DNA of 64,000 nt from Siphonodentalium dalli (lineage: Eukaryota; Mollusca; Scaphopoda; Gadilida; Siphonodentaliidae), in assembly GCA_032622095.1 (NCBI GenBank), contig CP136066.1:183184716-183248715 (forward strand). The letters run 5' to 3'. Below the pieces are notes generated by a model. That model ran no database searches. It saw nothing but the letters and a program-made list of their open reading frames with translations, and was not told where the DNA came from. Positions 9,501 to 63,500 of this stretch are shown one piece after another. Within the stretch, counting starts at the first letter, position 1; each line of letters begins with the position of its first letter. The position numbers and the translations under genes are program-made.

Positions 9501-9959
9501 CATTTCATCTAAGTGTGGAATGATTTAAATCAGAATAAATTATGATGCGTATTTATCTGCTAAACAAAATGCATCACAGCACCACGTGACTATCTCTCTC
9601 AGGCGGGAACCAGCTGCAACAATGAGCATCGATTTATCATGGAACACTGCTGTAGTCACTTCCCAATGTCACTTTCGTCGCGCGACAAAACTTTGCGATA
9701 ACTCGCGTTCTCCGCCGCGCGACGAAAGCGACAGAAGCGACGAAACATGCGATATTTCCCACTTTCCGTCGCGAGATTTCTGTTTTGTTATTTAAACAAA
9801 TTATTATTCATTTCGAAGTTTTGAGTTTAAGGACTTTGCTAACCCAATTTCAACCCAAATTTGATAGTCAAAATAATAGATTGTGCTCACTTTTATTAGT
9901 AATCACAGCAACTAAACCCATGGATGCAGAATTTTAACAGTATAATTCATGGTGGATTA
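9501..9959. other. Intergenic with a small GC-rich inverted repeat
   Basis: TTTCGTCGCGCGACAAA near 9675 and CGCGCGACGAAAGCG near 9717 are inverted copies and could form a 60-bp hairpin. Otherwise nothing recognised. Confidence 0.4.
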
Positions 9960-10199
9960 TCTTAGAAATACACAATGTGAACTTTATAGAGTAGTAGAGT
10001 CGCTTATGTCCGATTTTGGGCTCCCGTGGGAAATTCATGAACAAATATAGAGACCATGTTCATGAGCCAGTATATGGTCTCTACTTCAGAAAATAATTTG
10101 TAAGACCCCCTGGGGTCGCGACTGGGTGGTCTGATGACGTCACAAAGATGGCCGCCATGCTCATTGTCTTAAGTTCGCCATTGTTAGATTTCATGATAA

Positions 10200-11326
10200 A
10201 ATTATAATTGTGACATAAAATATATGACAATCATTTTGTACCGTGTATGGTGTGACGCCATGTTATATTTTTATTTAAACAAATTTCCTCTCGATCAAAG
10301 ATGGCCGCCAAAATGGCGACCGGAAGTGGGAAAATTGATGATTTTCCATACATGTCGCTTACATCATTTCCGATTGTATCGAATTGGTGACGATTAAGGA
10401 ATATACTTCTCTTCAATCTTGATAACAACTCACTTAGGCATCACATTAGTTGATTTCTTTAATCATAACCTTGATTGTCTTCTCCAAGTGCGATGATTTA
10501 AAGGAAATGGTTGAATTTCGCCAAAATATACTTTTATATTTTCTAACTATTTCCTTTTAGAAATTTAAAATTAATCGATGATGGAAATGAGTATGATCAT
10601 TACATAAGGTATTTAAATCTAACTAGATCCCGAAACTGTCAACTTAATCCAAGATGGCTTCCAAGATGGCGGCCAAAATACGATAATACGCAAATTTTAC
10701 CCTCTTTCATCCAATTACGTTTCTGTCATGCAGAAGGTGAATGCAGTAAACTAATTTGCTTCTTCCAAATAAATATTCGCCATGTTATGGCCATTCATTG
10801 TAGTTGTCTTACCGCAATGATTCAAAATGCCAGTTCATATGGCAATTATTGTCCAAATAAGCATCGTGAAAATTCGCCAATCATTATATTTGTATACGTC
10901 AAATAAATTGTCCACCAATTTTCGTACAATAACCTCCCCATGACCGTGTTCTGCTGAAGTTAATCTATATATGCCACTTGGTTGGGGTGGGTATCAAGAT
11001 GCATGAATGCAGCATGATATATTCAATTTATGGGATATAGCCAGACTGATCTGATTAGTCTTAGTCGAATAGAATTAGAACAGTTTGAGTCATTAGGATA
11101 TATATGGATCGGCCTTTATAATATGATCTCAAAGATGCCATTATTATTATAGTGAACCATGACCACCTCCGTAGTTACGCGTGCTGATTAAACTTCCTTC
11201 ATTTCCACATTTCCTTTGGTTCATGATAACGTTATAACCAGAATCAACACGGCACGTCATGAGATGTTATTAACTCCAACTATTACTTCACATTATGTTG
11301 TAAGAAGTTAGTGGACTGCGTTGCCC
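10200..11326. other. Left arm interior of layer 1, non-coding
   Basis: Contains several AAGATGGCGGCC/GCCGCCATCTT-type motifs (about 10146, 10298, 10651-10676). No coding pattern was recognised. Confidence 0.45.
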
Positions 11327-11359
11327 CATAATGTACGGTGGCTGGATGAGGACATGGGA

Positions 11360-11690
11360 AATTTAATTTTTATCTCGTTTAAACGAGATAACTATCTCGT
11401 TTAAACGAGATAGCAGATGGGAAATTTTATTTTTATCTCGTTTAAACGAGATAATTTATCTCGTTTAAACGAGATAAGTGATGGGAAATTTTATTTTTAT
11501 CTCATTTAAACGAGATAACTTATCTTGTTTAAACGAGATAGCAGGTGGGAAATTTTATTTTTATCTCGTTTAAACGAGATAACTTATCTGGTTTAAACGA
11601 GATAGCAGGTGGGAAATTTAATTTTTATCTCGTTTAAACGAGATAACTTATCTTGTTTCAACGAGATAGCAGGTGGGACATTTTATTTGT
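11360..11690. repeat. Array of palindromic 20-mers, left arm
   Basis: About five units of roughly 60 bp, each with GGTGGGAAATTTTATTTT and two copies of the perfect palindrome TATCTCGTTTAAACGAGATA, some with single changes. The inverted counterpart is at 17865-18110. Confidence 0.9.
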
Positions 11691-11744
11691 ATAGTTATAA
11701 TACAACAGTTACTAGTGGCCAGTCCAGACGGTTGCGCTCGTATA

Positions 11745-12168
11745 TAGGTGGTACCCAAACACCACCCCATACCATCACCCATAGTATATTGTGCTCCGCA
11801 GGCGCTCGTATATGGGTAGTTACCCACCCACCACCACATCACGCCACGCATAGTATCTTATGCGCCGCAGGCGCTCGTATATATGTAGTTACCCACCATT
11901 CACCATAGTATATTGTGCGCCGCAGGCGCTCGTATATATGTATAGTTACCCACACACCATCCCATCACCCATAGTATCCAATGCGCCGCAGGCGCTCGTA
12001 TATAGGTTGTACCCAACCACCACCCCATCACGTCACCCATAATGATGGGATGGGGTGGTGGGTGGGTAACTACCTGTATACGAGCGCCTGTGGCGCATAA
12101 GATACTATGGGTGGCGGGATGGGGTGGTGGGTGGGTAACTATCTATATACGAGCGCCTGCGGCGCACA
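11745..12168. repeat. GCGCCGCAGGCGCTCG tandem array, left arm
   Basis: Units of about 65-75 bp combine CACCACCCCATCACCCATAG with GCGCCGCAGGCGCTCGTATA. The array flips orientation near 12040, so it is itself palindromic. Inverted matching units lie at 17628-17815. Confidence 0.85.
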
Positions 12169-13213
12169 ATATACTCTTATAACTAATGTGTAGAAACGAT
12201 TACACATCAAATGTGTAAACTCGGATAATACACATAGCAATGTGTAGTTTTACATATAAATATACATTGACCAAGGGCCGTTCTACACATAATATGTATA
12301 TTTTGTTACACACAATTGTGTAAGAATGTAGAGCATGCGCATTGCGCTGCCTCAGTTTCATAGTCTGCTACATGACGGCCATATTGTTTGAGTATATTTT
12401 TTGGAATACAATCTACAGCGATCGTAGACAAGGAATGTAAGTTCAGAATTCCGACTTGTGGGTATAGTATTAATGATATATCAGGATTTACTTGTTAAAT
12501 CTTTCATTGCGAATACTGCTGTCAGACTCGTTTATATGATTGTTGTAATACGGTAATACTAATATTATGCAACCACGCCACGACCCTGGTTTGTTCAATT
12601 AAAACGAAAACTCACACATGACGGAGCTAAATATTACGTACCATTGTACGCCATGAAAGTTTTAACGTATAAATCTCAATATGTCATAAATACTATATAG
12701 TCTGGTCGGAAAAGCTACATTTGTGGAATACTAGAACCCTAGAGGCATTTTTGGGGAAAAGCATGAAACTAAGTTTTCTAGCATAATTCAAGTATGCTGA
12801 ATCCAATGAGGGTGCCTGTCGCTGCCTGTGACCCATATTTCACCCATAAAATCAACTTAAAGTCACATACTGTTTTTATTGCCGCGAAAATACAGTTAGT
12901 CAATATCGAGACATATATCACACTCGTTATACATATAATCTCATGAACATGGGAATACTTTGTTATTTGAATCACCCCTCGTGACCTTTCTGTCATAACT
13001 ATATCATCATCTGCTATACATATATGGACAAGTATGTTATTTAATAAATAAACGCTTTTCATGAAATCACACCCGGTTGAAAGTTCTGTGAATCAGGATT
13101 AAGTTGAAAATATGACGTTTTTTCACAAATATCTTCTAGACCAGTTCATGCTGTTTGGAACTGCTTGAGTAATGTGACTTTATATTGTGTTTTGTATATT
13201 AACTGATCATTGG

Positions 13214-14100
13214 AGCAATTAAATATGCAATTATTGGAACACGGTATAAAATTTCACAAAAAAATCACAATTGGGATTTTAGTCATATTTCAACAAGAAA
13301 TGAACAGAACTTTGTAATGTAAGTGAGGCATATCATTACCTATGAATATTCCAACTCATTGGAACCAAAATTGTTACTTTGGCTCAAAATGGCTGCCAAA
13401 TTGGCCGCCAAAATATGGAAAATGGTAAATATTGCCCAGCGTGTCCTGCAATCGCTTACAAGTTGTGGTTGATGTATAAAATTGGCTATTCTGCCTCCTA
13501 TACATTGAATATTAACATATCTGATGCACCATGGTTAATTGTTACTATTGTTACCACTGACATCACCAAAAATATTGGACTTTTCTCACTAAAACTTGAC
13601 ACAAATATCGGCAAAAATTAACTTTTCAGGTATAGACCATTTTTTCAAGTAAAATGCAACTATCATTGGTAAAATGTAACTGTCTCTGGATTCAAATGTG
13701 TTTATTGTTTTGGTCTATCTTAAATGTGTCACACTACGGTATCTATAGACCAAATTGCTCAAGATGGCTTCCAAAATGGCAACCAAATTTGTATAATTTT
13801 TTTTTTACATATATCCTGAACATTATTCTCTGTGTTATCCGAAAAGGTAGTAAATTGTGACTCACTTGGTTATTATACGTGTTAGTTAATTAACTGACAA
13901 CTATATGTTCTATTCTGGTTGTCCCAGTTCCGTATGGGGCATGACAAATTCATTTTAAAGTATGGAATTTTGCCGAGAACCTCTTTTGTGATTCTGGCCA
14001 TATTATTGAATAGAAATGGGCAGAACGTTGAGACGGAACCGAGATGAACCATAATCTGTGGCTATTCTGGTCCATTATGGTAACAAAAAATATCAACTGG
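13214..14100. other. Left interior of layer 4, non-coding
   Basis: ATGGC-rich blocks (13386-13420, 13757-13785) resemble the AAGATGGCGGCC motifs elsewhere in the nest. No coding. Confidence 0.4.
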
Positions 14101-14109
14101 ATGCAGGGT

Positions 14110-16500
14110 GGATGCCAATATGGTAGTCAGGGAGTTACTCTATGATCATAGTTGAGGTGAATAGGTATACAGGGAGTTAATGTACGTCATGAATGATGTG
14201 AATAGGTATACAAGGAGTGACTATATGGTTATGTGTGGGTTGTCCATAGTAAGATGTATAGGTATACAGGGAGCGGTCATGGTCATGTGTGAGGTGAATC
14301 GGTATGAATGGAGTGACTGTATGTTGTATGGTTGTGTATATCCAGTACGGGAGAACCCGATGTGCCTGTATGGACATTGATGTGGTGTATGAATATAGTT
14401 ACATGGTCATCTATGTGTTGATTATGTATATATGGAGTGACTGTAAGGTCATGGGTGGGATGTACATGTGTTGTCTGTATGATCATGGATGGGGTGTGTG
14501 GATAAATAGGGAGTTATTTTATGGTTACGGGTAATGTGTACATGTATACATGGAATGACTGTACGGTCATGATTGAAGTGTATATGCATACCTGGAGTAA
14601 GCTGGGTGGACATTATCGAGCGTGTAGGTATATAGGGAGTGTCCTTGTGGTATATATTTATATATCTCGTGGATGGATTATCATTGGTGGGTGTATAGGG
14701 ATTAGCTGTATGATCATGGATGTCGTGTATGATTATACAGTGAGTTGCTGAATTGTCATTTGTGAGGTGTATATGCAAGTATGGAAGGTATGAGTGGTCG
14801 TGTGTGCAGGTTTTTTGTATATATGGAAGGGCTGAATGACCGTTGGTGAGGTGTATATGTATACCTGGAGTGACTCTATTGTCTAGGGTGGGCTGCATAT
14901 GTATATATCGAGTGGTTATATGACTATGTGTGTCGAATAGGTATACATGCAGTGACTGTATGGTCAATGGTGGTATGAGTACGTGTAGGTATACAAGGAG
15001 TGACTGTATGATCATAAATGTAATGAATATATATATAGGGAGTGACTAAATGGTCATGTGTCAGGTGTATGAGTATACCTGGTGTTCCTGCTTGGTGACT
15101 CGTGGCGGTATGGTCATGTGTAGGTTATATGGGTATACACACGTGTTGCTATATGGTCATGGGCGAGGGGTATGTGTATATAGCGAGTGGCTATATGTCC
15201 ATGGGTGAGGTGCATATGCATACATGGAGTGACTTTTCTGACATAGCTGGGATGTATTAGTATATCTTGTGTCGCTATTCGGCTATGGTGCGACACATAG
15301 GGATACATGGAGTGACATGGCCAATGGTGAGGTGAATATGTATACAAGGATTGACCATGATCATGTATGAATGTTTTGAATAGGTACACACGGGTGACTA
15401 TATGGACATATGTCAGGTGAAGGAGTATACCAGGTGGCATGGGTGAGGGTATGTGTATGAAGCGGGTGGCTATATGGCCATTAGTGAGGTGCATATGTAT
15501 ACATGGAGTGACTCTATGGTCATTGTTGTGGTGTTGATGTATATATTGAATGTCTATTTGACCATCTGTGTGGAGAATAGGTATACAGGGTATTACCGTA
15601 TGGCCAATCGTGAGGTGAATGCATGGGTATACACGGAGTGACTATATGGTTATGGGTCACGTTTAGGAGTATACCCGGTGGGCCTCCATTGTGACTCATG
15701 GATGTATGGTCATCCGTGGTACTGGGTCAGGTGTACGTATACACATTGGGTCACTATATTGTTGTGCCTGTGGTGTTTATGTATATATGGAATGACTGTG
15801 TGATAATGGGTGGCTAACGCTTTCCACGTTTAACGTTTCCCCCATGTACATAAACACCATCAAGATGGAGAACTCTCTGACATGACCTCTCTGTTGATTA
15901 ACATATCCTTGAGATATTGTGGAAAGTGATAGCCACCAATGTACACATGTACAACCCACCCATTACCTCAGTCACTCCATATGTACATAAACACCACACA
16001 AATGACAATATAGTCACCCACTTTATACACGTACACCTGACCATACAGCCATACTTGGTTTTACCCGTACATACCACAAATGACGATACAGCCACGATTC
16101 ACCATGCATGAACACCAGGTGTACTCATACAGCTGGTACATGACCATATAGTCACTCTATGTATACATATGCACCACATTCACGACCATACATATTCAGT
16201 GCATACATATTCAGTGCATACATATTCATACATATTCATACATACATACTCATACATATTCAGTGCATACATATTCAGTGCATACACTCAGTGCATACAT
16301 ATTCATCTCACAATGGACCATACAGCCACTACATGTATCCCTATTCGCCATACCCATGACCATAGGGTCAATCCAGGTATACATATACACCTCACCAATG
16401 GTGAGCTCTTCCAGATATACGAATACCCACACACACGCCCACTTATACCTTCCGTACTTGCATATACACCTCACAAATGACAATTCAGCAACTCACTGTA
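14110..16500. repeat. Degenerate 50-60 bp minisatellite that reverses orientation
   Basis: Units built on GTATACATGGAGTGACTGTATGGTCATG.GTGAGGTG run in one direction from about 14110 to 15810. From about 15830 the same unit appears inverted (CATGACCATA...CACTCCATGTATAC) until 16500. The junction includes CTAACGCTTTCCACGTTTAACG around 15815-15840. Between 16180 and 16310 there is a sub-array of CATACATATTCAGTG. Confidence 0.8.
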
Positions 16501-16639
16501 TACTGTATTCATACACGCCGCTCCAATGATCAGTTAATATACAAAAGACAAAATAAAGTCATATTACTCAACCAGTTCCAACAATATGAACTGATCTAGA
16601 AGATATTTGTGAATAAACGTCTTATTTTCAACTTCCGGC

Positions 16640-17330
16640 GGCCATTTTGGCGGCCATCTTGGAGGGTGAGTTTCAATTTTGGGCCAAAAAAGTGTCATTA
16701 TGTCTTAGCTTCACGAAAATACATACATTTGTATACATTTTACTAGATTTTCCCGCTATAATTTGCATAAAACTGACTTAGGGTCTGATCTGAAAAATGG
16801 CGCCAGGATGGACGCCATCTTGTCTGAAGTCTACACGGCCACTTTTTGTTCTTATTAACATTGCTTAAAAGTTGAAGGACATAATAAGGAACATAATGAG
16901 TGTGGTGAAGTTAAGTACCCCTATTGGCTCCCGGACTATAAGAGAATTCTTACGAGAATCGTCGATAAATATACAAAACAGCAATGTCTTACCGTAGGTA
17001 CCTGATTAATATGATGTTAATGTTTCAGAATTATTACTGTGATGATAGTATCTTGATACAACGCGGCTTTGAACGTTCCGTGAGGAATATATAAGTTTGA
17101 GTATGTTCAAGGCCAGTTACGTGATTTCATATGACGTTGTACGGTGCCGTATCAACAACCATCCAGCGAAGAAAACACGAAGATTTTAAAAGCCTTTTAT
17201 TGAACCCTATGTTCATCCAATCGGGCGACAGGCAGTCTATTCGTGTTCGGCACCTTCGAATTATGGTAAAAAAGTTGGTTTGACACTTTTCCGCGGAAAT
17301 GCTTCTAGAAATGTCTGTTCTGAGAATTAC
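16640..17330. other. Right interior of layer 4, non-coding
   Basis: Holds GGCGGCCATTTTGGCGGCC (16625-16645) and ACGCCATCTTG (near 16810). No coding. Confidence 0.4.
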
Positions 17331-17627
17331 GACTAGACTAATATACCCACTGTTCGGAATACTGAACTTGCATTCTTGTCTACGATCTATATGTGTAAGA
17401 ATCTACACAAAATGTGTAAGGGATATGTGTTGATTTTATGCACACCAGTGTGTACAAATGTGTAGACATTTACAATTTATTGTGTAACAATTGTTACACA
17501 ATGTGTGTACTTTCATAAAACTACACATATACTACACAAATATGTTTAAGATCAAAAATGAATAATGATTGTGTAGCAGGGCTACACATTATGTGTAGAA
17601 AACCTACACATTAGTCATAAGAGTGTA

Positions 17628-17815
17628 TGGGTGATGGGATGGGGTGGTGTTTGGGTACCACCTATAATATACGAGCGCCTGCGGTGCATAAGATACTATG
17701 GGTGGTGGGATTGGGTGGTAGGTGGGTACTACCTATATACGAGCGCCTGCGGCGCATAAGATACTATGGGTGGCGGGATGGGGTGGTGGGTGGGTACAAG
17801 AAGTTCCCTATACAT
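17628..17815. repeat. GCGCCGCAGGCGCTCG tandem array, right arm
   Basis: Three units in the orientation GATGGGGTGGTG...GAGCGCCTGCGGCGCA, matching the left arm at 11745-12168 in inverse order. Confidence 0.85.
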
Positions 17816-17864
17816 TCCCGGTGCAACTGTCTGGACTGGCCACTAGTAACTGTTGTATTATAAC

Positions 17865-18110
17865 TATCTCGTTTAAACAAACGAGATAAGTTATCTCGTT
17901 TAAACGAGATAAAAATAAAATTTCCCACCTGCTATCTCGTTTAAACAAGATAAGTTATCTCGTTTAAACGAGATAATAATAAAATTTCCCACCTGCTATC
18001 TCGTTTAAACAAGATAAGTTAAAAAATAAAATTTCCCACCTGCTATCTCGTTTAAACAAGATAAGTTATCTCGTTTAAACGAGATAAAAATAAAATTTCC
18101 CATGTCCTCA
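17865..18110. repeat. Array of palindromic 20-mers, right arm
   Basis: Inverted counterpart of the 11360-11690 array, with AAAATAAAATTTCCCACCTG between palindromes. It has fewer units, and one unit has lost a palindrome near 18019. Confidence 0.9.
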
Positions 18111-18130
18111 TCCAGCCACCGTAATAATGT

Positions 18131-20070
18131 CATTCAGTCTTAAGAACCTGAATTCCAGAGTATATTGGACATAATAAATCAAACTAATGACATGACACGA
18201 CACCGGAAGACCCATCACTACCAATGGATGCCTCACTCGTTTCCCATCGTGTGGTCGTACAGTTTGTCAAAACGCGGGAAATAGTATCATAATAAGTATC
18301 GGCTGTCTATTTTTGGCTCGTATCTATTGCGCTTACCATTCACATTCTTTCGTCGTCTAAGCTGCATGGTTGGACATGCAAGCAGTTGCCCCTGTTGATT
18401 TCTATAAACTTTCAAATAATCACAAATCAAGTGCGACCGGCAGCACAGTCATAACCCTTGCCCAGAACCACTTTCATATTAAACTGATGTACAAACGTAA
18501 TGTATTGTCTCACTAAACTTTTCACATGCCTAAATCATAGAAATCAATATGGGATATTAGTTTGATGTATACTATCAATGGTCCATGTCAGCCTACCGTG
18601 TTCATGCCAAGCCACCTTTCGTATATCGGGCGAATCACTTTGTGTGGCGACCACCAATTAACTGAACACGATGAAAGCCAAGAATCTTTCACACCACTTC
18701 GCCCGTATGTGGGGATCTAGCCTGGTGTATGACAATGTTCATTTCAACTGAATAACATGTCCTGTGGGGTCACTAACTTATATTCACTTTTCAAAACGCC
18801 ACATTTGCAATGAAAGTGGTTGGACTACTTTGTTGAAATAAATCATCCAGATAACAGAACCTGGTATTCACAATATATCACTTTAAGCTTGATAGCGGAC
18901 ACTACCGCTTATACGGATATATTACCCACCTATGTGTGTATATTCTATTTTGATCTGTCGTGGTTATCAATACGATTGAAACATGCTAAGTTCAGATAAA
19001 CGAGGTTCAAATTGTGTTACGATGCAAATTTAATTAAAGGTTACAGCGCAACTAATATTGAGACAAGCAGGCCATGACACCCATATAATTAATTCTACTA
19101 TTGTTCGTGTTTTATAAACAAGGATGTGTTGTTTCTTGCTTGCCAAGATTCATGGTATCGCTGAGAAGTACAATCTCACTTCATAGCTATCACAATAAAC
19201 AATTGGATATTGCTACCTTCTATGATACACTATATGCATTGTCTACCGATATGTCACGACAAGAACTAACACTAACGATTAACTGCATCATCGATTACTA
19301 TTTGATATGGTAACCACCAATACTTCTCAATTTGTACTCTGGCTTAGAGTATAGCACAGAGGTGTAGACATTGGAATAGTAAAACTTGCCCACCCAAGCT
19401 AAGATGGCGGTTTAAGATACTTTCTAATTTCACATAGTGAGTTGTATTTTCTCTTCAACACCCTCCTCACTTAATATTAGGAAATTTGAAGAAATGACGC
19501 GTATGCCGTATAGGACATCGCTAATGTCTATAAGAAATTAAAGCTATGCGCATTTACTTAAAAATAGCCGATTAACAGCATTCCCCGTGATGGAATGCCA
19601 GGGCGACATTTGCTGATGTACCGTAACGAGCACTGACTTTTGTATTTTGCCTGCCATTTTGGTAGCCATCTTGGATGAAATTGATAATAGTGTGATAATA
19701 ATTCCGTATGTGGCACGAATACTTATTTCCCATCACTGAATACCGCTCATTTCTGTAAATATATTGCTACAATATTGGAATAGATTTTTGACAAGATGCT
19801 ACAATTCGGTTGTCTAAAATAGTTTTTGGACAGATCGAACATGTTTTGTACAATACAATTGGTCACAACATTACTGAAGCAATAATTAAACACAGAATTG
19901 TCACAATTCGCAGTCGCTACCAAACGGAAGGTCATTTACATGAGATTCTCGAAAATCGCAAAAACTACTATTTATGAATTGCCCTAACAGAAAAAAATGT
20001 ATAACATAAAAATTTAAGAAATATGCGCTGAATTCGTTAGTTCTTATGCCAACCCTACATCTGAACTGAC
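18131..20070. other. Right arm interior of layer 1, non-coding
   Basis: No coding pattern; GCCATTTTGGTAGCCATCTT near 19652 pairs with the left arm block near 10650. Confidence 0.4.
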
Positions 20071-20290
20071 AATGATGTCATCGTTGTGGCGTCATAATTC
20101 TCTCCAGTCGCAGACCCATGAAGTCTAACAAACTTTTTCCGACAAAGTAAGTGATACCCTATCATAATATCATAGTCTCTACATTTGTTCAAAAAATTCC
20201 CACGAAAGTACATAAGCGACTCTACTAGAGGTTTTAAAAAATATTTTTTTCGAACCCAAATCCAACCAAAAAAAATATATTTCTAAGAAA

Positions 20291-21490
20291 AAGATATGGA
20301 AATGTGTACTGAATACTGTGAAGAATGATAAACAATAAAACTATATTCATATTTACCAAGTGTTCTTTGAGACCGTGTACTTGAACTTAACCTCGCTCAT
20401 ATAGGCATGATTCTGGACTTGTATATTCTTCCCAGACGGAGGCGATCACAAAGAAATCCCTAAATAGCCCGGGCACATCAGGTAGTGTAAAATTTATCTG
20501 ATCTTGAGGAAAGACATTTCTATACCCAAATGCGAAGAAATGTTGTCGGGGAGTATATATTACATTTTTATCAGGCTAAAACAATTAGAAAATATATACA
20601 GTAAAGTATTTTTCAGTTATCGCGTGCTCAGTACCGCCAGCTACATTTTTGTTAACAGTCGAAAATTCGAATATTCGAGATAAAAAGTATGTCAGTTGGT
20701 TCCATAAGACTTGTCAGCGGGTGTCGCCATTCATGCGTTCTGCGCTGAGTATGAGATGTGCTTGATATCCACGAACGTTATTATCATTCCTTCAAGTTAT
20801 CGAAAGTACCATGCTCCGATCGGAATTGGACATGAGGCGATTTTAAGGTGAAAAGGGTGTAAATCCGTAAGATTTTGGCTAGTCCCTTTGTTCCCATTTT
20901 ACCATAAACTACAGTCTATATACATGTAGAAGCTTTGAAACGACATCACAAACGAATAAGGTCTATTACAAAGAGATGTTATAATGTGAGAGCTTTCGAA
21001 ATATACAATGCAAATATTATCAGTGTCCAAATTATTCATTAAGCACGCCGCGTGTATACTAATGTACAGATTCCTGTTTCGCCTGGGCGCTGCCATAGCT
21101 CATGGGTTCTATTTATAAAATGTTAATTACTGGGACACATTAAAAGTTGTAGTGCGACCCCGAGGCCGAGATGTAGTGTTACACTGAGGCCGAGCCCAGT
21201 AAAAGGTGTCGTTGAAAATTTCAATTTCGTTTATTGGCTTTTACATTATGTCAATAATGTTGATTTTTGGTTTGTAATAAGCTATGCCATTTACAAATAA
21301 CATAAATGAAACTGAGATGCTAAGCAAAGCGGCCGCATATCATTTATCCCACGGGGGGGGGGGGGGGCTACATTGTATATATATTGGAAGGGAAAACCAC
21401 GACAGTACTGCATTCAATCACGTATACTACGTACAGTACATGCGGAGCGATATGGAAATCAGGTACTCAATTTGCCAGCTTCTATTCCGC
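20291..21490. other. Intergenic, nothing recognised
   Basis: A run of 16 G at about 21353-21368 is the only notable feature. Confidence 0.3.
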
Positions 21491-27410: not shown

Positions 27411-27890
27411 TTAAAAAAGTGTGTTCCCCGAATTAACTGTACAACCTTAAGTGTACCACCTTATGAGAAAAAAGTCCAATCTGCAGGGCAGAGTTCAGTC
27501 CCCTGCTGACCTGACCACTGTCACCACGTACATAATGTTAAGAAATTTTTCATTTTTAAACATTAAGATTATACTGTTAAACCAAACTGTCCATATTCAT
27601 TTGAATTTGGCTAGATCAAGCCATAATTAATTGTAACCGACAAAACTCTTAGAGACTCTAGATTTAATTACGAAAATATACGTGATGGCATTGGCCAATC
27701 AGATCAGCAAAGGGAGGGACTGACCTCTGCCTTGTAGTTTAAAAAAAAATCCTGATAGCAACATATTACTCTATTTTCCCGCAGTGATGACCAGATGCGA
27801 TACGATTGATATGTGAAGGCATGTGACAGGAAAACTATTTATTAACAGAAAGAGACATTGAAAAGGGTTAAAATGTCAACAGGCAAATTC
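27411..27890. other. Intergenic, nothing recognised
   Basis: No coding or repeat structure recognised. Confidence 0.3.
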
Positions 27891-27892
27891 TA

Positions 27893-28270
27893 GCCATTAA
27901 ATACCAAATTTGTCTCGTACCAGCCATCAAATACCAAATTTGTCGCGTACCAGCCATCAAATACCACATTTGTCGCGTACCAGCCATCAAATACCAAATT
28001 TGTCGCGTACCAGCCATCAAATACCCAATTTGTCGCGTACCAGCCATCAAATACCCAATTTGTCGCGTACCAGCCATCAAATACCCAATTTATCGCGTAC
28101 CAGCCATCAAATACCCAATTTGTCGCGTACCAGCCATCAAATACCAAATTTGTCGCGTACCAGCCATCAAATACCCAATTTGTCGCGTACCAGCCATCAA
28201 ATACCCAATTTGTCGCGTACCAGCCATAAAATACCCAATTTGTCGCGTACCAGCCATCAAATACCCAATG
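27893..28270. repeat. 30-bp minisatellite, about 12.5 units
   Basis: The unit CAGCCATCAAATACCCAATT plus TGTCGCGTAC is repeated with few changes. The period is a multiple of three and the unit lacks stops in several frames, so open frames of 123 and 132 codons appear on opposite strands. A lone partial unit (TTTGTCGCGTACCAGCCATG) is at 28759. Confidence 0.95.
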
Positions 28271-28572
28271 TGTCCACCTAATGCGCACGAGTGTAGACTA
28301 TAAACGATATCTGATCCTACGGAGGATAACATAGGTTTTGATATGCGATCTTTATCTGTTTTTAGTGATTTTATATGAAGGGTAATAACTCTATAAAGAA
28401 TGTCCCTTTACTAAATAACGGCGATTTGTATGAGAAATTACACCACCACAATAGATCAACTCTGGTGAAATATAAGTCAATTTCTTCTATAGGGTGGGTG
28501 GGTTTGGGGGAGGTTCGGGGTACGCTCTTTAAAACATTTCTTCAAATATTTCCGTTATTTCGTCAAAAACAC

Positions 28573-31921: not shown

Positions 31922-33215
31922 CAGGAGACTGGTTTAATATACTGTCTCCAAGACACGCACTTCACAAAATCAATGGAAAGATGTATAGAAGCTGAATGGG
32001 GCTACAAAACTATCATGGCTCCCTTTACGTCTCAATCGAGAGGAGTAGCTATTTTATTCAAAAATAATTTTGACTTCAAACTGCATCAGGTCCAGCGAGA
32101 TCCAAGTGGAAATTTCATTATAATGGATATTACTATCGAAAATCTTAGATTAAGTCTAGTCAATCTATATGACCCAAACGAGGATAACCCTGACTTCTAC
32201 TCTAACTTGAAAAAAATACTCGACAAAATCGGGAATACCCAGATTATAATGTGCTGCGACTGGAATCGCGTTAAAAATCAGAATCTTGATACTTATAACT
32301 ATAAACAAGAAAACAACCCACGTGCAAACATTGAAGTTAAAAATCTTATCGACAGCCTCGAACTAATCGACATTTGGAGAATCTACAATGCCAATGAAAC
32401 CCGATACACATGGAGAAGAAAGTCCCCGATAAAAATGGCTCGGCTGGACTATTTCTTAGTTTCCTCGGAACTCCTCAATTTATCAAACACGGGACCCGCG
32501 ATAATACCGGGATATAAATCCGTTCACTCAATTATCTCCTATCAAATAACAGTTAGCAACATGAAAACTGGTCATGCGTTTTGGAAGTTCAATAACTCTA
32601 TATTTTACATAGCAAGGAATATTTGCGACTTGGTTAAAAGGATCATACAGAAGAAAATAAAGTGCGCTATGGCTACTCATATGTAGAAGATGAAGGTGAA
32701 CGTAAAGTTTCATGTAATATCAATAAGAGACTTCTTTTAGATGCCATTTTGTTAGACATTAGGGGAGAAACTATAAAGTTATGTGCGAACCGTAAACGAG
32801 AACATCTTAAAAGAGAACAACTCTTTTCTGAAAAGAAAAACAGAATATTATTTGATCTCGACAACCCATCACAAAGTCTCGAATGTAAGCAGAAGCTCAT
32901 GGAAGACATGGAAAAAAACTGAATTTGAATTAGAAAAAATACGAAGAGAGAGCAATCGTGGTGCTATGATTAGGTCCCGAGCGAAATGGGTCGAGGAAGG
33001 AGAAAAACCCACAAAATATTTTCTGAATTTAGAGAAACGTAATTATATTTCCAAAACCCTGACCATGCAGTTTGACAGATAAAAACGGTAATAATTTGAC
33101 AACACAAGACAGTATCATGTCGGAAGCTCGAAATTTCTACCAAACTCTTTATTCACATAAATATACTTCTGATCAAGATCTAAAAAAAACAAAACAGGAG
33201 ACTCATTGTATAAAT
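31922..33215 (+). pseudogene. LINE ORF2 fragment: endonuclease and linker
   Basis: The frame contains YCLQDTHF, SRGVAILFKNNF, LRLSLVNLYDPNEDNP, CDWN (position of the usual D-x-N), TWRRKSP..MARLDYFLVSS and YKSVHSII. These are apurinic-like endonuclease motifs of L1/Tx1-type LINEs. The canonical SDH near the end is SVH, so a catalytic Asp is lost. Downstream, in changing frames, come IRSRAKWVEEGEKPTKYFLN and NGNNLTTQDSIMSEARNFYQ, the linker before the RT. The RT itself is absent. It is truncated at both ends and frameshifted after 32686, so inactive. Confidence 0.88.
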
Positions 33216-39500: not shown

Positions 39501-42500
39501 TGAATTGAGATGAAGCAGAAAATCACGAAAAATGAAAGCTTATATTGTTAGCAAATACACTCATTCTTCTATTAGTTCAAGGAAATTCATTATGGTAGAA
39601 AAATTGTTTTGTCTTTAAAACCAGGAGGTGCCGTTTTCGAAGAATGTCACATTGTCGAAACAATAAATTTTCTGAGACAAAAACACACAAACGAGTGCTT
39701 GCACTACTTAAATACTTTAGCATTGCTTTAGCGTCTGAATCAATCATCTAGTTTGAAAATGTAGCTTTGTTTATCCTAAAAATAAGTTTTTTAAACATAT
39801 TGCCATGGATATCGGTTCTGAAACATGGTATACGTGTGCCATATTATAAAGTTATTATACAATGTTGTGTACAGTATGTGTTTTTCTTGTACGAGTCCAG
39901 GTTGTGGTGAAAAGTCATATTGGACGAGACACGCAGTGTCGAGTCCAATATGACTTTTCACCACAACCTGGATGAGTACAAGAAAAACTCATACTGCACA
40001 CAACATTGTATAATGACATTTGTATTATCCATCTGTATGTTGATCCAAATTTTGGGAATAAACTTTAGTGATTATTTTTGGTATTTGTCGGCGCTTAATT
40101 CTCTATAAAAGCCAGTATTTGATCATCGGAAAGCATGAGTTGGAACAGTAAACACGGAAATGATAAAAGACTCCACCAGTGTTGCGCGCGCATCACAATT
40201 TCACCGATTCATTTCGCAATAGTTAATTCGTGACGTCACGGAGTCCCAATAAAAAAGTGATAATGCACACATGGGACTCCCAATATGACATTCGGAGCAG
40301 TTTCATTGACCGAGAATCCTAGTACATAACGTTTTGTTCTCCTATTAAACTCCAACAATGTGACTGTCCTACATAAATTAAGCGATTATATAAGACGAAC
40401 GTCTACTTGACGAGTTCACCGCTCCCAACACAACACAACCCATTCCAACCCCCCTTTTGAGTAACTTAAACAGCACGAACCTTCTCTATATGACCATATT
40501 CCTGATATGTAAACGTTAGAAGATATGTACTTATTTGTTAGTATCAACGCCATACCTCTTTTATGTATATTGTATTACATGTATATTTGTGATCTCTATA
40601 TATCATATCATGATGATGATGAATGAGAATAAACTAATTTGGAGCCAATATGTTTTTTTCACGGATTATCATGTGACGCCTTTTGCCCAATCAGAAAGAG
40701 TGTTAGTTAAGGGATGGATAATAATAATAGATCTGATTCGAAGTAATGAAGTTGAAGCTGCCTTTGTCGAATTTTTAACATACAGATTTACCAGAGCATC
40801 GAATTATTTAACTGACAATATATATGTTGAAACATTAAAGTTTTATTACATGCTAACCAGTTCACATGAAGTCAAGTTACTGTATTATAAATGTATTACC
40901 TTCAGGTAGCTGTGTACCACTACTTCTGGTTCCATTGTGTACAGTGTTAATTTAATATGCATGTTTGTCAATTTATGTCAATCTTCATTTATGGAGGAAA
41001 TAAAGACGTAATAATATAATCTTTATCTTCAGGGTGATAATATAGGCCTAAGTTGGCCGGGTGCATTGTGTAATGATTAATCAATGTGTATTATATACAC
41101 CTGAACATAGACACCACTCACATAGCGAACAAGTTAAGCTTGATGACATATTAAACTTGAAATGTAATATAAATTGTATTGTTTAATCGTTATTCACCAT
41201 TGGATTTGTATCTAACATGATCCACCTAGAATGCTAGATTGTGTACATGATTATCACTTATAATGTACTACTGTATTAGTATTATATTGACTGTATTCGA
41301 ATTTCAATATTCACTCTGACGAAAATTTCCTACAAACTAGAAGGAATTAGAAGGGACCAGTCTGAGTCTGACTTCTCACTAAACTTAGTTCTCAGCATAA
41401 ATATATTGAAAAGTTATAATCTGTTTTTGGAAGCTATGGGTGGACACAGGCTGTATCGCGAATACACTACTCAGTATTTATGCGGTTTATGCTCACCCAT
41501 AGCCGACAGCAACATACACATAGGCCCAGCTGGTGAATTATACGTGTCTCCCATTTTCGACTTGAGCGACACGTGCAAAAAAAAACAAAAACAGATTTTC
41601 AATTTATAACAATTAGTGCATACAGAAAGACATAAATGACAGCGAGACTCAGAGCATTAAGATAAATCTTGGATAACATCACTGTAACAATAAGTAAATA
41701 AATTAAATTAAGTTTACATAGCTAAATTTCTTGACAGAAAGACCTCTACGAAATCAGGAAACATTAAAATTACGAAAGATAACTCTAGACAATAGACAAT
41801 CGACGATCCGGTCAATAAATCGCCACGACATTTATCCGGCCACTGTAAACTCACAACAGAGTCAACTGAAATAAACACAAGAGGAGTCAGAATGTATATA
41901 ATTCATGTCTATAGACTACCATTTCTGATACTGTACATATATTTTGTACATACACTCATTTATCCCCTCTGTAGAATTGTAAGCCTTCTTAGGCACCATT
42001 GTTCTTCTAGGGCCATACCACGCCGTATCCCGGTGTTCTTGTTCGATATTTGTTAACTAAACAGGAAACACTTATTTCGTATTACCCCGCAAAAATTGTC
42101 GTCGCTATATAGAGAAGACAGATTTTACACGGGTCATAACAATCTCGTATGCCCCGTGTAAAAGTGATATTACCCCGCAAAAATTGTCGTCGCTATATAG
42201 AGAAGACAGATTTTACAAGGTCATAACAATCTCGTATGCCCCGTGTAAAACTTATATTACCCCGCAAAAATTGTCGCCGCTATATAGAGAAGACAGATTT
42301 TACAAGGTCATAACAATCTCGTATGCCCCGTGTAAAACTTATATTACCACGCAAAAATTGTCGTCGCTATATAGAGAAGACAGATTTAACAAGGTCATAA
42401 CAATCTCGTATGCCCCGTGTAAAACTGATATTACCCCGCAAAAATTGTCGTCGCTATATAGAGAAGACAGATTTTACACGGGTCATAACAATCTCGTATA

Positions 42501-45500
42501 TGCCCCGTGTAAAAGTGATATTACCCCGCAAAAATTGTCGTCGCTATATAGAGAAGACAGATTTTACACGGGTCATAACAATCTCGTATGCCCCGTGTAA
42601 AAGTGATATTACCCCGCAAAAATTGTCGTCGCTATATATATAGAGAAGACAGATTTTACAAGGTCATAACAATCTCGTATGCCCCGTGTAAAACTTATAT
42701 TACCCCGCAAAAATTGTCGTCGCTATATAGAGAAGACAGATTTTGCACGGGTCATAACAATCTCGTATGCCCCATGTAAAACTGATATTACCCCGCAAAA
42801 ATTGTCGTGTCGCTATATAGAGAAGACAGATTTTACACAGGTCATAACAATCTCGTATGCCCCATGTAAAATTGATATTACCCCGCAAAACTTGTCGTCG
42901 CTATATCAAGAAGACAGATTTTACACGGGTCATAACAATTTCGTATGCCCCGTGTAAAACTGATATTACCCCGCAAAAATTGTCGTCGCTACATAGAGAA
43001 GACAGATGTTACACAGGTCATAACAATCTCGTATGCCCCGTGTAAAACTGATATTACCCCGCAAAAATTGTCGTCGCTATATAGAGAAGACAGATTTTAC
43101 ACGGGTCATAACAATCTCGTATGCCCCGTATGAAACTTATATACCCCGCAAAAATTGTCGTCGCTATATAGAGAAGACATATTTTACAAGGTCATAACAA
43201 TCTCGTATGCCCCGTGTAAAACTTATATTACCTCGCAAAATTGTCGTCGCTATATAGAGAAGACATATTTTACAAGGTCATAACAATCTCGTATGCCCCG
43301 TGTAAAACTTATATTACCCCGCAAAAATTGTCGTCGCTATATAGAGAAGACAGATATTACACGGGTCATAACAATCTCGTATGCCCCGTGTGAAAGTGAT
43401 ATTACCCCGCAAAAATTGTCGTCGCTATATAGAGAAGACAGATTTTACACAGGTCATAACAATCTCGTATGCCCCGTGTAAAACTGATATTACCCCGCAA
43501 ATATTGTCGTCGCTATATAGAGAAGACAGATTTTACACGGGTCATAACAATCTCGTATGCCCCGTGAAAAACTTATATTACCCCGCAAACATTGTCGTCG
43601 CTATATAGAGAAGACAGATTTTACACGGGTCATAACAATCTCGTATGCCCCGTGTAAAACTTATATTACCCCGCAAAAATTGTCGTCGCTATATAGAGAA
43701 GACAGATTTTAAACGGGTCATAACAATCTCGTATGCCCCGTGTAAAACTGATATTACCCCGCAAAAATTGTTGTCGCTATATAGAGAAGACAGATTTTAC
43801 AAGGTCATAACAATCTCGTATGCCCCGTGTAAAACTGATATTACCCCGCAAAATTTGTCGTCGCTATATAGAGAAGACAGATTTTGCACGGGTCATAACA
43901 ATCTCGTATGCCCCATGTAAAACTGATATTACCCCGCAAAAATTGTCGTGTCGCTATATAGAGAAGACAGATTTTACAAGGTCATAACAATCTGGTATGC
44001 CCCATGTAAAATTGATATTACCCCGCAAAACTTGTCGTCGCTATATCAAGAAGACAGATTTTACACGGGTCATAACAATTTCATATGCCCCGTTTAAAAC
44101 TGATATTACCCCGCAAAAATTGTCGTCGCTACATAGAGAAGACAGATTTTACACAGGTCATAACAATCTCGTATGCCCCGTGTAAAACTGATATTACCCC
44201 GCAAAAATTGTCGTCGCTATATAGAGAAGACAGATTGTACACGGGTCATAACAATCTCGTATGCCCCGTGTAAAACTTATATTACCCCGCAAAAATTGTC
44301 GTCGCTATATAGAGAAGACATATTTTACAAGGTCATAACAATCTCGTATGCCCCGTGTAAAACTGATATTACCTCGCAAAATTGTCGTCGCTATATAGAG
44401 AAGACAGATTTTACACGGGTCATAACAATCTCGTATGCCCCGTGTAAAACTTATATTACCCCGCAAAAATTGTCGTCGCTATATAGAGAAGACAGATTTT
44501 ACACGGGTCATAACAATCTCGTATGCCCCGTGTAAAACTGATATTACCCCGCAAAAATTGTCGTCGCTATATAGAGAAGACAGATTTTACACAGGTCATA
44601 ACAATCTCGTATGCCCCGTGTAAAACTGATATTACCCCGCAAATATTGTCGTCGCTATATAGAGAAGACAGATTTTACACGGGTCATAACAATCTCGTAT
44701 GCCCCGTGAAAAACTTATATTACCCCGCAAAAATTGTCGTCGCTATATAGAGAAGACAGATTTTACACGGGTCATAACAATCTCGTATGCCCCGTGTAAA
44801 ACTTATATTACCCCGCAAAAATTGTCGTCGCTATATAGAGAAGACAGATTTTAAACGGGTCATAACAATCTCGTATGCCCCGTGTAAAACTGATATTACC
44901 CCGCAAAAATTGTCGTCGCTATATAGAGAAGACAGATTTTACACGGGTCATAACAATCTCGTATGCCCCGTGTAAAACTGATATTACCCCGCAAAAATTG
45001 TCGTCGCTATATAGAGAAGACAGATTTTAAAGGGTCATAACAATCTCGTATGCCCCGTGTAAAAGTGATATTACCCCGCAAATATTGTCGTCGCTATATA
45101 GAGAAGACAGATTTTACACGGGTTATAACAATATCGTATGCCCCGTGTAAAACTTATATTACCCTTCAAAAATTGTCGTCGCTATATAGAGAAGACATAT
45201 TTTACAAGGTCATAACAATCTCGTATGCCCCAGGTAGAATTTTTATGAAGTTTGAAGGTCTAATGTACATCTTTCAAAGCCACGTTGATTCCTGGTGTGA
45301 TGTTATCTTGCTACTCTTGCTTCATTTATTTACGTTGTCTGACTCATTTACCATTACTATTTTTGAAGTGTATTGCTCTCTTTTATATCTTCTAACATAT
45401 AGATTCCAAAAGTAAGCGAGGCCAGCAAGTATTTATGGACAAATTGTGGAAACAGCTATATAAATATATTCATCGTATGAGCAGTCTAATCAAATAGAGT

Positions 45501-60500: not shown

Positions 60501-63500
60501 ACGAGGTATAATGATATCTCATATATCATATCTAACTATTAACATCACTATATATACACCACACGCTCCCAGTCTGCCTTTTTTTTCTTTCTTTTTTTTA
60601 TTGGAATAAACAGACATCAATGCAGGAATGTAAATATAAACAGAGGTACACATTATTATATATCAAGTGACATTCTTCCAATTCGCTCACATCTCGCTCA
60701 CTTCATTTACACGTCTTTCGTACACCATATGCACTCCCAGTGACTGACATGTAAATTGGGATATATCGAATATATGTTCATTTTTATATATTAACTAGCC
60801 GATGAGCCCGACGTTGTCCGGGCTATTCAAAAACCAAATTTCAAGTCGATAGCTCTACCCGTTTCCGAGATCTGGTCTGCGAATGCGCGAAGCTGGCGTC
60901 GCACGGGCTCGGCGACCCGATAAAATTCGTATCCGGGGCAAGATACATTCACACACCAAATTTCAAGTCGATAGCTCCACCCGTTTCTGAGATCTGGTCT
61001 GCGCATGCGCGAAGCTGGCGTCGCACGGGCTCGGCGACCCGATAAAATGTGTATCCGGGGCAAGATACATTCACATAGCAAATTTAAAGTCGATAGCTCC
61101 ACCCGTTTCCGATATCTCGTCTGCGCATGCGCGAAGCGGGCGCCGCACGGGCTCGCCAATACGACAAGGTCGACCGCCTGGTCAAACTACACACACGTAC
61201 CAAGTTTCGTCCCGATCGGTCGAGAATCGTAGATTTGTATAAATGACAGACAAACATACAGACAAACAGACAAACAAACAGAGTTCTTCAAAATATATAT
61301 GAGATTCATATTTTAAATCCTTGAACTTTGTTCCCGTGTACGGCGTATCGGTACGACATCTAACCATAGACGGCATTATGATATTGGCGGGGGTATCGTA
61401 TTTCCGGGTATAATAACTAAGTGAGTTTTCGAATTGGTGAAGAGATAATTTCCAGGACACTCAAGCTGATTGGTGTTGACTCGTGGGTACATGTTATACA
61501 TGTAAAGCCTTTTCTAAAAGGAACCAGTTTTTCGAAAATTCTTCTTGTTTCGATTGGCATCGTGCGGTATACTTCTCACATTGGTATCTATCCTCTTTGA
61601 GGAAAACATTTAGCGATAAGTTAATTGGCTTGAGTATAGTCATGTATGCATTGTTTAATTAGGAGCCATAGCATGTTCGTTGTAACGTTCGGGTCCGTTG
61701 GCGACGAGCCGAGAATCATTGTCATGTGTTGGGGACAGAGATCAATGCTGCTAATTTTACCCCAATCGCTGAGTTCCTTTATGAATTCCTGAACGTGCAC
61801 ACAATTCCAAAATATGTGGGAGATGTCTTCTGTCTCGCTTTTACATCTGTCGCATTTATCATCTTGTCGTAAATTGGACATTTTGAGAAACTTATTAGTT
61901 GATAATATTCGTGAATTTATTCGGAATTGTAGCCATTGCAGCTTTGTGTCCGGCGTCGTGAGAGAAAGGGAAGTTTATCCAGTTTACACCAATTAATTAT
62001 GTTGTCGGGAAATAACACTTGCCATTTTCTGTGTGCTACAGTAGAAGTTGGAATGTCGATTAAAATTTTATAAAAGTCTTGTCCTCCTCGACAATTTTTA
62101 AGCAATTAAAAAAATTATTTGGTAAAAGGGGGGTGCCTGTTCGAGTTATATGCTGTTCAAGTTTTTTTGCAAGTAATTTTATCTGATGTTAGATGTTATT
62201 AAGAGTGATGAAGTTTGTGTGTATGTTATAGATCCTTAGTAGATCGTCTCGTGTAATAAAATAACCTTTATTGTCCACCATATCGTTTAAAAAGATAACC
62301 CTCTTTTCTCGCCAGGAGGTGGAATTTATTACTTTTCCGTACTGCTTTATATTTGTGTTTTTCCATAACGTACACAGGGGGGGGGGGGGGTCGGAAAAAC
62401 ATTTCAGGCACGTATGGCATTTTTTCCATTTCGATCATTTTATGTACCCACCCACCCCCACCGCCAAATTATTTTCCGTTTTCGGCAGTTTTTTTCCGAC
62501 CATTTTTTGACACCCACCCCCCTTTTAACACTAAAACAGAGATTTGCGGGGGGAAATTCACTGTAAACAGCTGTATATGAATTTCTGTGCATACTATTTA
62601 TCATGGATGTTAACATGGACATGTAAATGGGAATGAGTCATTTTGAGGTCATTCGGCCAAAAAAACATGGCTGCCAGCGGCCATCTTGGATTTCAAAATT
62701 TGCAACAAAATACAACACGATAACTGCCTGCAGTCAATGTACCAGTTAGAATTACATTATTTCTCTCATTCAAAGTGGTTTTGAAGCCCAACTCATTGCC
62801 AAAACACTAAAAAAAACAAGCAGGAAATTTTTTTTTTAGTTGCGGAAAAAATTGCTTGTTGGTGGCTTTGACCACCCACCCACCCCGGCATCGACCATAA
62901 TTTGTTTTTTCAACCCACCCCCCCCCCTGACGTACATGATGATATTTGGCGATTATTTCTATCTTTCTCTAGAAGTTTTGTAAATGCCATCAGGACATCA
63001 TGCCAAAAAGGATTGGTTAATTTCTTTGCCTGTTTTTCTATGTAAGGCTAGTCATAAGTAAGGAACATAGGATAATAAAATAAAGGTATATCTATTAATG
63101 GAGTCCACTTGGCACTTTTTGTCACGCAGTCTGCCATGTTAAGCAAGTAGATATATAATTTGTAAATAGCTGGTTCTAAGTACATTTTTCAAAGAATACT
63201 TGATAAAATGAGTATGTTTTATAGTTCATAATTTTGCACAGTGTTCAGTACACATTCCCATATGTGTTTCTTTGATATGGCTTTTATGTTTGTTGGACTA
63301 ATGTAAAAACAAAATGTTTTGAAAACCTCTATAAAGTTCATAATTTGTATTTCTTACAAAATTCGCCAAAATGTGGCATCAATTAGCTTGGTTGCTTTGA
63401 TTATTAATATAAGTGAACATAATCCTTTATTTCACTCCATCGCCTTTGGGGAAAATGGATCCACAATGCCCTTACCGCCATAGCTAACTCAGCACGACCA

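Follow-up and report, generated by a model that had tools for sequence, protein, structure and literature searches.

Five nested layers of inverted-repeat elements at a locus of the scaphopod Siphonodentalium dalli, with an inner pair that recurs at other loci

Nested transposon clusters are ordered by which element interrupts which, each level carrying its own target-site duplication (TSD), and foldback elements are characterised by long inverted terminal repeats made of tandem repeats in variable number. Among the closest described systems, the Mutator/Foldback family Tm1 of root-knot nematodes has compound terminal inverted repeats (TIRs) of variable length built from tandem repeats, TSDs of mostly 9 bp (8–10 bp) and a putative transposase in some members, and one Tm1 copy hosts an unrelated nested inverted-repeat element (PMC3169594). 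The non-autonomous foldback Tetris of Drosophila virilis likewise bears tandem repeats in its TIRs, with TSDs of 8–10 bp and, as reported, no transposase found (PMC4079207). The locus studied here comprises five levels, L0[L1[L2[L3[L4]]]], delimited by genomic copies, read-through empty sites and TSDs (Table 1), the search covering 2.23 Gb in 9 contigs. Dissected in this way at its junctions, it is a genuine transposon nest of an ordinary kind already known elsewhere, and its edges and TSDs are now fixed base by base. Its L2[L3] part is very probably a mobile composite, and, unlike in nested clusters in general, this inner pair itself recurs at 11 other loci. Any function of the locus is without support. 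An earlier reading of the window (the whole 64-kb stretch of DNA analysed) from sequence alone was borne out in part: the nest stood, while several edges and TSDs did not. Its count of five levels was right but their membership was not, since L0, which it overlooked and which hosts L1, replaces a minisatellite that it had ranked as a level.

Table 1 Features of the nest, in window coordinates
Feature	Position	Strand	Remarks
L0, left piece	9827..9991	+	Start of TTAA-ended inverted-repeat element; last 3 bases, GAG, are one L1 TSD copy
L1, including all inserts	9992..20227	+	Ends TAGTAGAGTCGCTTATG; TSD GAG at 9989-9991 and 20228-20230
L2, foldback-like	11334..18123	+	Ends TACGGTGGCTGGATGAGG; TSD ATAATG at 11328-11333 and 18124-18129
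L2, left arm, 64-bp tandem repeats	11354..11692	+	Self-comparison, tandem repeats
L2, inner 69-bp minisatellite	11734..12173	.	Turns round near 12044
L3, with L4 inside	12174..17625	+	5 bp lost at left end; right end is GTG (17625), then TA
L4	12698..17340	+	Ends TAGTCTGGTCG / CGACTAGACTA; TSD ATA at 12695-12697 and 17341-17343
L4, inner inverted repeat, left copy	13101..13216	+	Partner 16520-16634, 91%; also in copy L019
L4, minisatellite, first orientation	14122..15813	+	Unit about 42 bp
L4, minisatellite, opposite orientation	15937..16503	-	Self-comparison
L4, inner inverted repeat, right copy	16520..16634	-	Also in copy L019
L2, minisatellite remainder beyond L3	17626..17797	.	Tandem-repeat analysis
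L2, right arm, left-arm repeats inverted	17864..18102	-	Self-comparison, tandem repeats
L0, right piece	20228..20370	+	Begins with second GAG; adjoins left piece in fetched copies

Other copies of the hosts continue uninterrupted across the places where L1 lies in L0, L2 lies in L1 and L4 lies in L3, the duplications measuring 3, 6 and 3 bp; L3, with a duplication of 2 bp, occupies a single defined position within the L2 minisatellite. Three junctions thus have empty sites and the fourth a site shared across the family, which upholds the proposal that inverted-repeat elements were inserted successively. Three of the four layer edges first put forward were near correct (11334–18123, about 12174–17625 and 12698–17340), the outermost being the exception. 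Among the best 40 copies scored per search, none other than the window crosses the L3/L4 left, L2/L1 right or L1/L0 right junction by more than about 11 bases. Every layer is repetitive, which could favour an assembly artefact in which copies of different repeats were misjoined; we regard this as very improbable, as L1, L2 and L4 each carry an exact TSD of family-typical length, the family copies stop at identical bases and the window contains no N.

The outermost element had originally been placed at 9960–20290 with an 8-bp flank containing one mismatch, and this candidate is rejected. Most other copies start at 9992 and stop at 20227, the TSD of L1 is the 3-bp GAG, and the former limits fall within the host DNA of L1, where the only inverted match found near them is 10 bp long (9961–9970 with 20278–20287, within L0). 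On the left, most of the 39 other copies scored start at query base 33 (9992) and the rest no more than 9 bases earlier, and on the right 20227 is the edge in most copies scored. Nine L1 copies, among them that of the window, could be read at both ends, and each has a TSD of exactly 3 bp. At 10917, in the stretch 10917–10992, the window copy of L1 is without about 1.2 kb present in other L1 copies.

The DNA around L1 is itself repetitive and therefore constitutes a fifth, outermost level, though only half an element, the second half of L0 being missing in the window. The left (query 328–492) and right pieces of L0 each match many genomic places and are neighbours in all 12 L0 copies fetched, with an exact 3-bp overlap, equal to the L1 TSD, in the better-matching arm of nine copies and an edge blurred by small differences in the remaining three. 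The nine complete copies measured span 935–961 bp, their inverted arms extend for 308 bp or more, and TTAA lies at or beside both ends in eight of them (the right end of L084 is GTAA). Duplication of a TTAA target is typical of piggyBac and Kolobok-like elements, with which L0 fits, although TTAA does not separate the two families. Outside 9827–20370, the 39 other copies scored per flank search show no match save about 10 bases in a few. A second L0-related copy, shorter and more diverged (72–75% identity), lies at 63127–63474 of the window.

The second element had been described as flanked by TA, and its TSD is instead the 6-bp ATAATG. The L2 site is empty in seven of eight L1 copies, which read ...CC(A/T)TAATGT joined directly to CATTC, the eighth (L006) being without the right part. 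The L2 end motif is TACGGTGGCTGG. Of the 21 copies that could be read at both ends, 18 have a TSD of exactly 6 bp (12/15 in a first set, in which five further loci were without an end, and 6/6 in a set fetched later, whose flanks were read by eye using the outermost right end for L093 and L095). The exceptions are L039, with 5 bp, and the abutting copies L030 and L031, with 1 bp. These two copies (G000:C3:90.34-90.38 Mb) have no matching flanks and resemble a local cluster of fused foldbacks. Allowing up to 2 mismatches across 31 bases, the genome has 177 L2 ends, from which about 90 copies are estimated.

L2 works like a foldback element, with 64-bp units in both arms in variable number. It resembles Tm1 in its compound TIRs of tandem repeats and variable length, but differs in its 6-bp rather than mostly 9-bp TSDs, in its 64-bp arm units and in the lack of a recognised transposase, a putative one being reported for some Tm1 members (PMC3169594). 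With Tetris it shares the non-autonomous foldback layout, the tandem-repeat TIRs and the absence of a detected transposase, and it departs from Tetris in its 6-bp against 8–10-bp TSD and in an inner minisatellite that turns round (PMC4079207). Duplications of this length fall short of the 8–10 bp of Mutator-type foldbacks, and the TSD thus speaks against placing L2 beside Tm1 and Tetris in Mutator.

Solitary L3 copies are about 0.8 kb long with ends CACTCTTATAACTAATG. The TSD of this third element is 2 bp and frequently yet not invariably TA, and its left copy has been lost in the window. Eight of the 38 L3 loci examined had no recognisable end; among the 30 with both ends found, 25 carry a 2-bp TSD (TA 16, AA 4, CA 3, TG 2) and only 2 match at 3 bp, these 30 being partly non-independent, with 8 composites representing one TA site and L048/L053 forming a near-identical pair. 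In composites the left junction reads ATATAC-TA followed directly by CACTC, a sequence that L010 matches exactly and L014 with a single change. The window has lost 5 bp there, including the left TSD copy, a loss seen in none of the other composites read.

The L2 minisatellite is contiguous with L3 at the identical place in nine other loci retrieved by the first genome search, and searches with the left and right junctions added one composite each (C2:159371314, fetched as L096, and C1:238338023, bracketed by L2 ends 1.6 kb apart), giving 11 other loci with L3 at the same inner site of L2; C1:117396728, a left-junction match with 3 mismatches, all on the L2 side, was left out of this count. Both L2 ends were read in eight of the 11 (L011–L017 and L096), all with exact 6-bp TSDs that differ from one another and from that of the window, while L009 and L010 are without the left L2 end. 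L4 is absent from the L3 site in the nine other composites of the first search. Its presence at 11 other loci, eight of them with a distinct and exact 6-bp TSD, indicates that L2[L3] most likely moved as a composite, and it probably came into this L1 copy ready-made. A single founding insertion of L3 into L2, later moved by the L2 ends, is the simplest reading; the founding insertion could in principle have taken place at this locus, with the composite departing from here.

Alternatively, L3 may have entered L2 repeatedly and independently at a preferred minisatellite site, each copy inserting in place without any movement of a composite. In an L3 tree of 36 rows, the 10 composites used and 7 of the 26 solitary copies form one subfamily (100/99), within which the composites are not one clade: solitary copies lie among them, at least six label changes are required and a single change occurs in 0 of 200 bootstrap trees. 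The minisatellite also offers many equal sites, and the left-hand contexts differ, L012 and L013 having a different, shorter unit left of L3 and L015 one extra base. Nevertheless, a single composite clade is not rejected (p-AU 0.195), and in 8 of the 10 cases found, window included, the right junction with its variant unit has the same sequence across 34 bp. The composites read share the unit site and orientation despite several TA per unit, and L3 also targets AA, CA and TG, so that we consider repeated entry unlikely and prefer transport of L3 by L2. At this locus the order of nesting should not be equated with the sequence of events, because L2 and L3 also occur together elsewhere as a unit; the insertion order taken from interruption by the sequence-only reading is therefore safe in part, the L2/L3 step being insecure. 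The practical warning is that order deduced from interruption alone may mislead, as an inner pair may be assembled elsewhere and imported as a unit.

The L4 site is empty in 15 of 17 L3 loci, with the sequence ACTATATACCC (one base changed in L016), the exceptions being a small deletion in L024 and a rearrangement in L026. This fourth element has a 3-bp TSD, ATA, and the duplication is 3 bp in six of seven copies (L018 fails; the right end of L020 is outside the view), with a TIR of 11 bp. The 39 other copies scored are 95–99% identical to the window, and a genome-wide census allowing up to 2 mismatches in 31 bases gave 303 left ends, an initial figure of 8106 being rough. The minisatellite that reverses orientation occurs on both sides of the reversal in all four other L4 copies fetched; it therefore belongs to L4 rather than forming a level of its own, and its reversal predates this insertion.

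L1 and L4 are alike in having TAGT at their ends, TSDs of 3 bp and a full length of about 4.6–4.7 kb, and a block of about 110 bp is common to both, in opposite halves (74% identity, E 2.7e-17), which suggests that they may be sister families or belong to one superfamily. Comparison with recognised groups placed neither. PIF/Harbinger elements have a 3-bp TSD of fixed type TWA, and this assignment was rejected because the duplications of L1 and L4 copies vary widely (TCT, TAT, ATT, CCA, CTT, CAT, ATA, GAG, TCC, TAA). CACTA / EnSpm elements end in CACTA and duplicate 2–3 bp; L1 and L4, with ends TAGTAGAGTCG and TAGTCTGGTCG respectively and 3-bp TSDs, were also rejected as members, and L3 has ends CACTC and a 2-bp TSD. 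To our knowledge, Tc1/mariner elements duplicate TA only, and L3, with AA, CA and TG among its TSDs, is not assigned to them. Helitron-type elements have, as far as we know, neither TIR nor TSD, so that the 11-bp TIR and 3-bp TSD of L4 argue against a Helitron-type element with a minisatellite core.

Self-comparison revealed numerous inverted pairs centred on roughly the same point, and the nested inverted-repeat pairs originally described are real: 68 pairs (E<=1e-3) lie in 9992–20227, none occurs in any of 10 first-order Markov controls, and four other equal-length stretches of the window contain 20, 4, 1 and 11. Pairs centred at 14.6–15.7 kb cover 3,911 of 10,236 bp (38%), or 2,207 bp without those wholly within the L4 minisatellite. 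Identity is mostly 60–76% between the arms listed for L1, L3 and L4, a few short ones reaching 86–91%, and as high as 99% among L2 arm units. The description of the locus as a 10-kb compound palindrome is thus accurate as to roughly concentric arms but overstates the pairing sequence. A native palindrome serving a purpose of its own, as a hairpin, origin or recombination site, rather than separate insertions, would account for the shared centre; nested insertions, however, produce such concentric arms automatically, the arms make up only 38% of the span and every layer occurs elsewhere without the next one, which leaves this explanation a negligible probability.

We consider it highly probable that non-autonomous inverted-repeat DNA transposons were inserted one after another to build the nest, with a target duplication at each insertion. 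L3 would have landed once in a founder L2, whose ends may then have moved it along as a passenger; the composite would probably have entered this L1 copy already assembled, and L4 would have been inserted later, into this L3 copy. Transposases would have been supplied from elsewhere, as none was seen at the locus. Terminal branches of the window copy measure 0.012 and 0.037 in the two L0 pieces, 0.012 and 0.043 in two pieces of L1, 0.015 in L3 and 0.009 and 0.014 in two pieces of L4. The further out a layer lies, the older it tends to be, which nesting demands, but this order is rough, the samples for L0, L1 and L4 being small (4–13 rows) and the pieces of one layer disagreeing.

The arms of L2 are highly variable in length: in copies read at both ends, a single arm has between 2 and 25 matches to the unit marker. 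L012 and L013 group as sisters in the L3 tree (99/98), yet their arms show 7/7 and 25/11 unit matches, and according to this pair the arm arrays change fast; the family offers a natural series for studying the growth of foldback arms. One might speculate that L2 represents an undescribed lineage of foldbacks with 6-bp TSDs and rapidly stretching and shrinking arms, accepting large passengers (L3 and, singly, a LINE-like insert or kilobases of minisatellite) and acting as a vehicle that spreads other transposons. We hold this to be doubtful; if true, foldbacks in this genome would serve as carriers for other transposons.

Two long L2 copies are unusual in content. A 7-kb copy, L091 (G000:C7:72354250-72361350), contains long LINE-like reverse-transcriptase frames within an exact 6-bp TSD, and a 4.9-kb copy, L094 (G000:C3:253210830-253215800), has about 4 kb of L2 minisatellite in its middle with frames of more than 1,200 amino acids across it. 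Six longer or further L2 copies yielded no frame recognised as a transposase that would mark an autonomous L2, those seen in L091 looking LINE-like. Seven frames of the window compared with Pfam also gave no transposase, the one weak match being to an endonuclease-reverse transcriptase (31922–32686, E 0.00034, 20.9 bits against a cut-off of 27.4), and Rfam gave nothing in the window at its gathering threshold. Literature searches recognised no paper on the nest or its families, which does not by itself show that none exists. Elsewhere in the window, 27872–28303 and 42061–45415 hold more tandem repeats with repetitive open frames, in the first of these on both strands.
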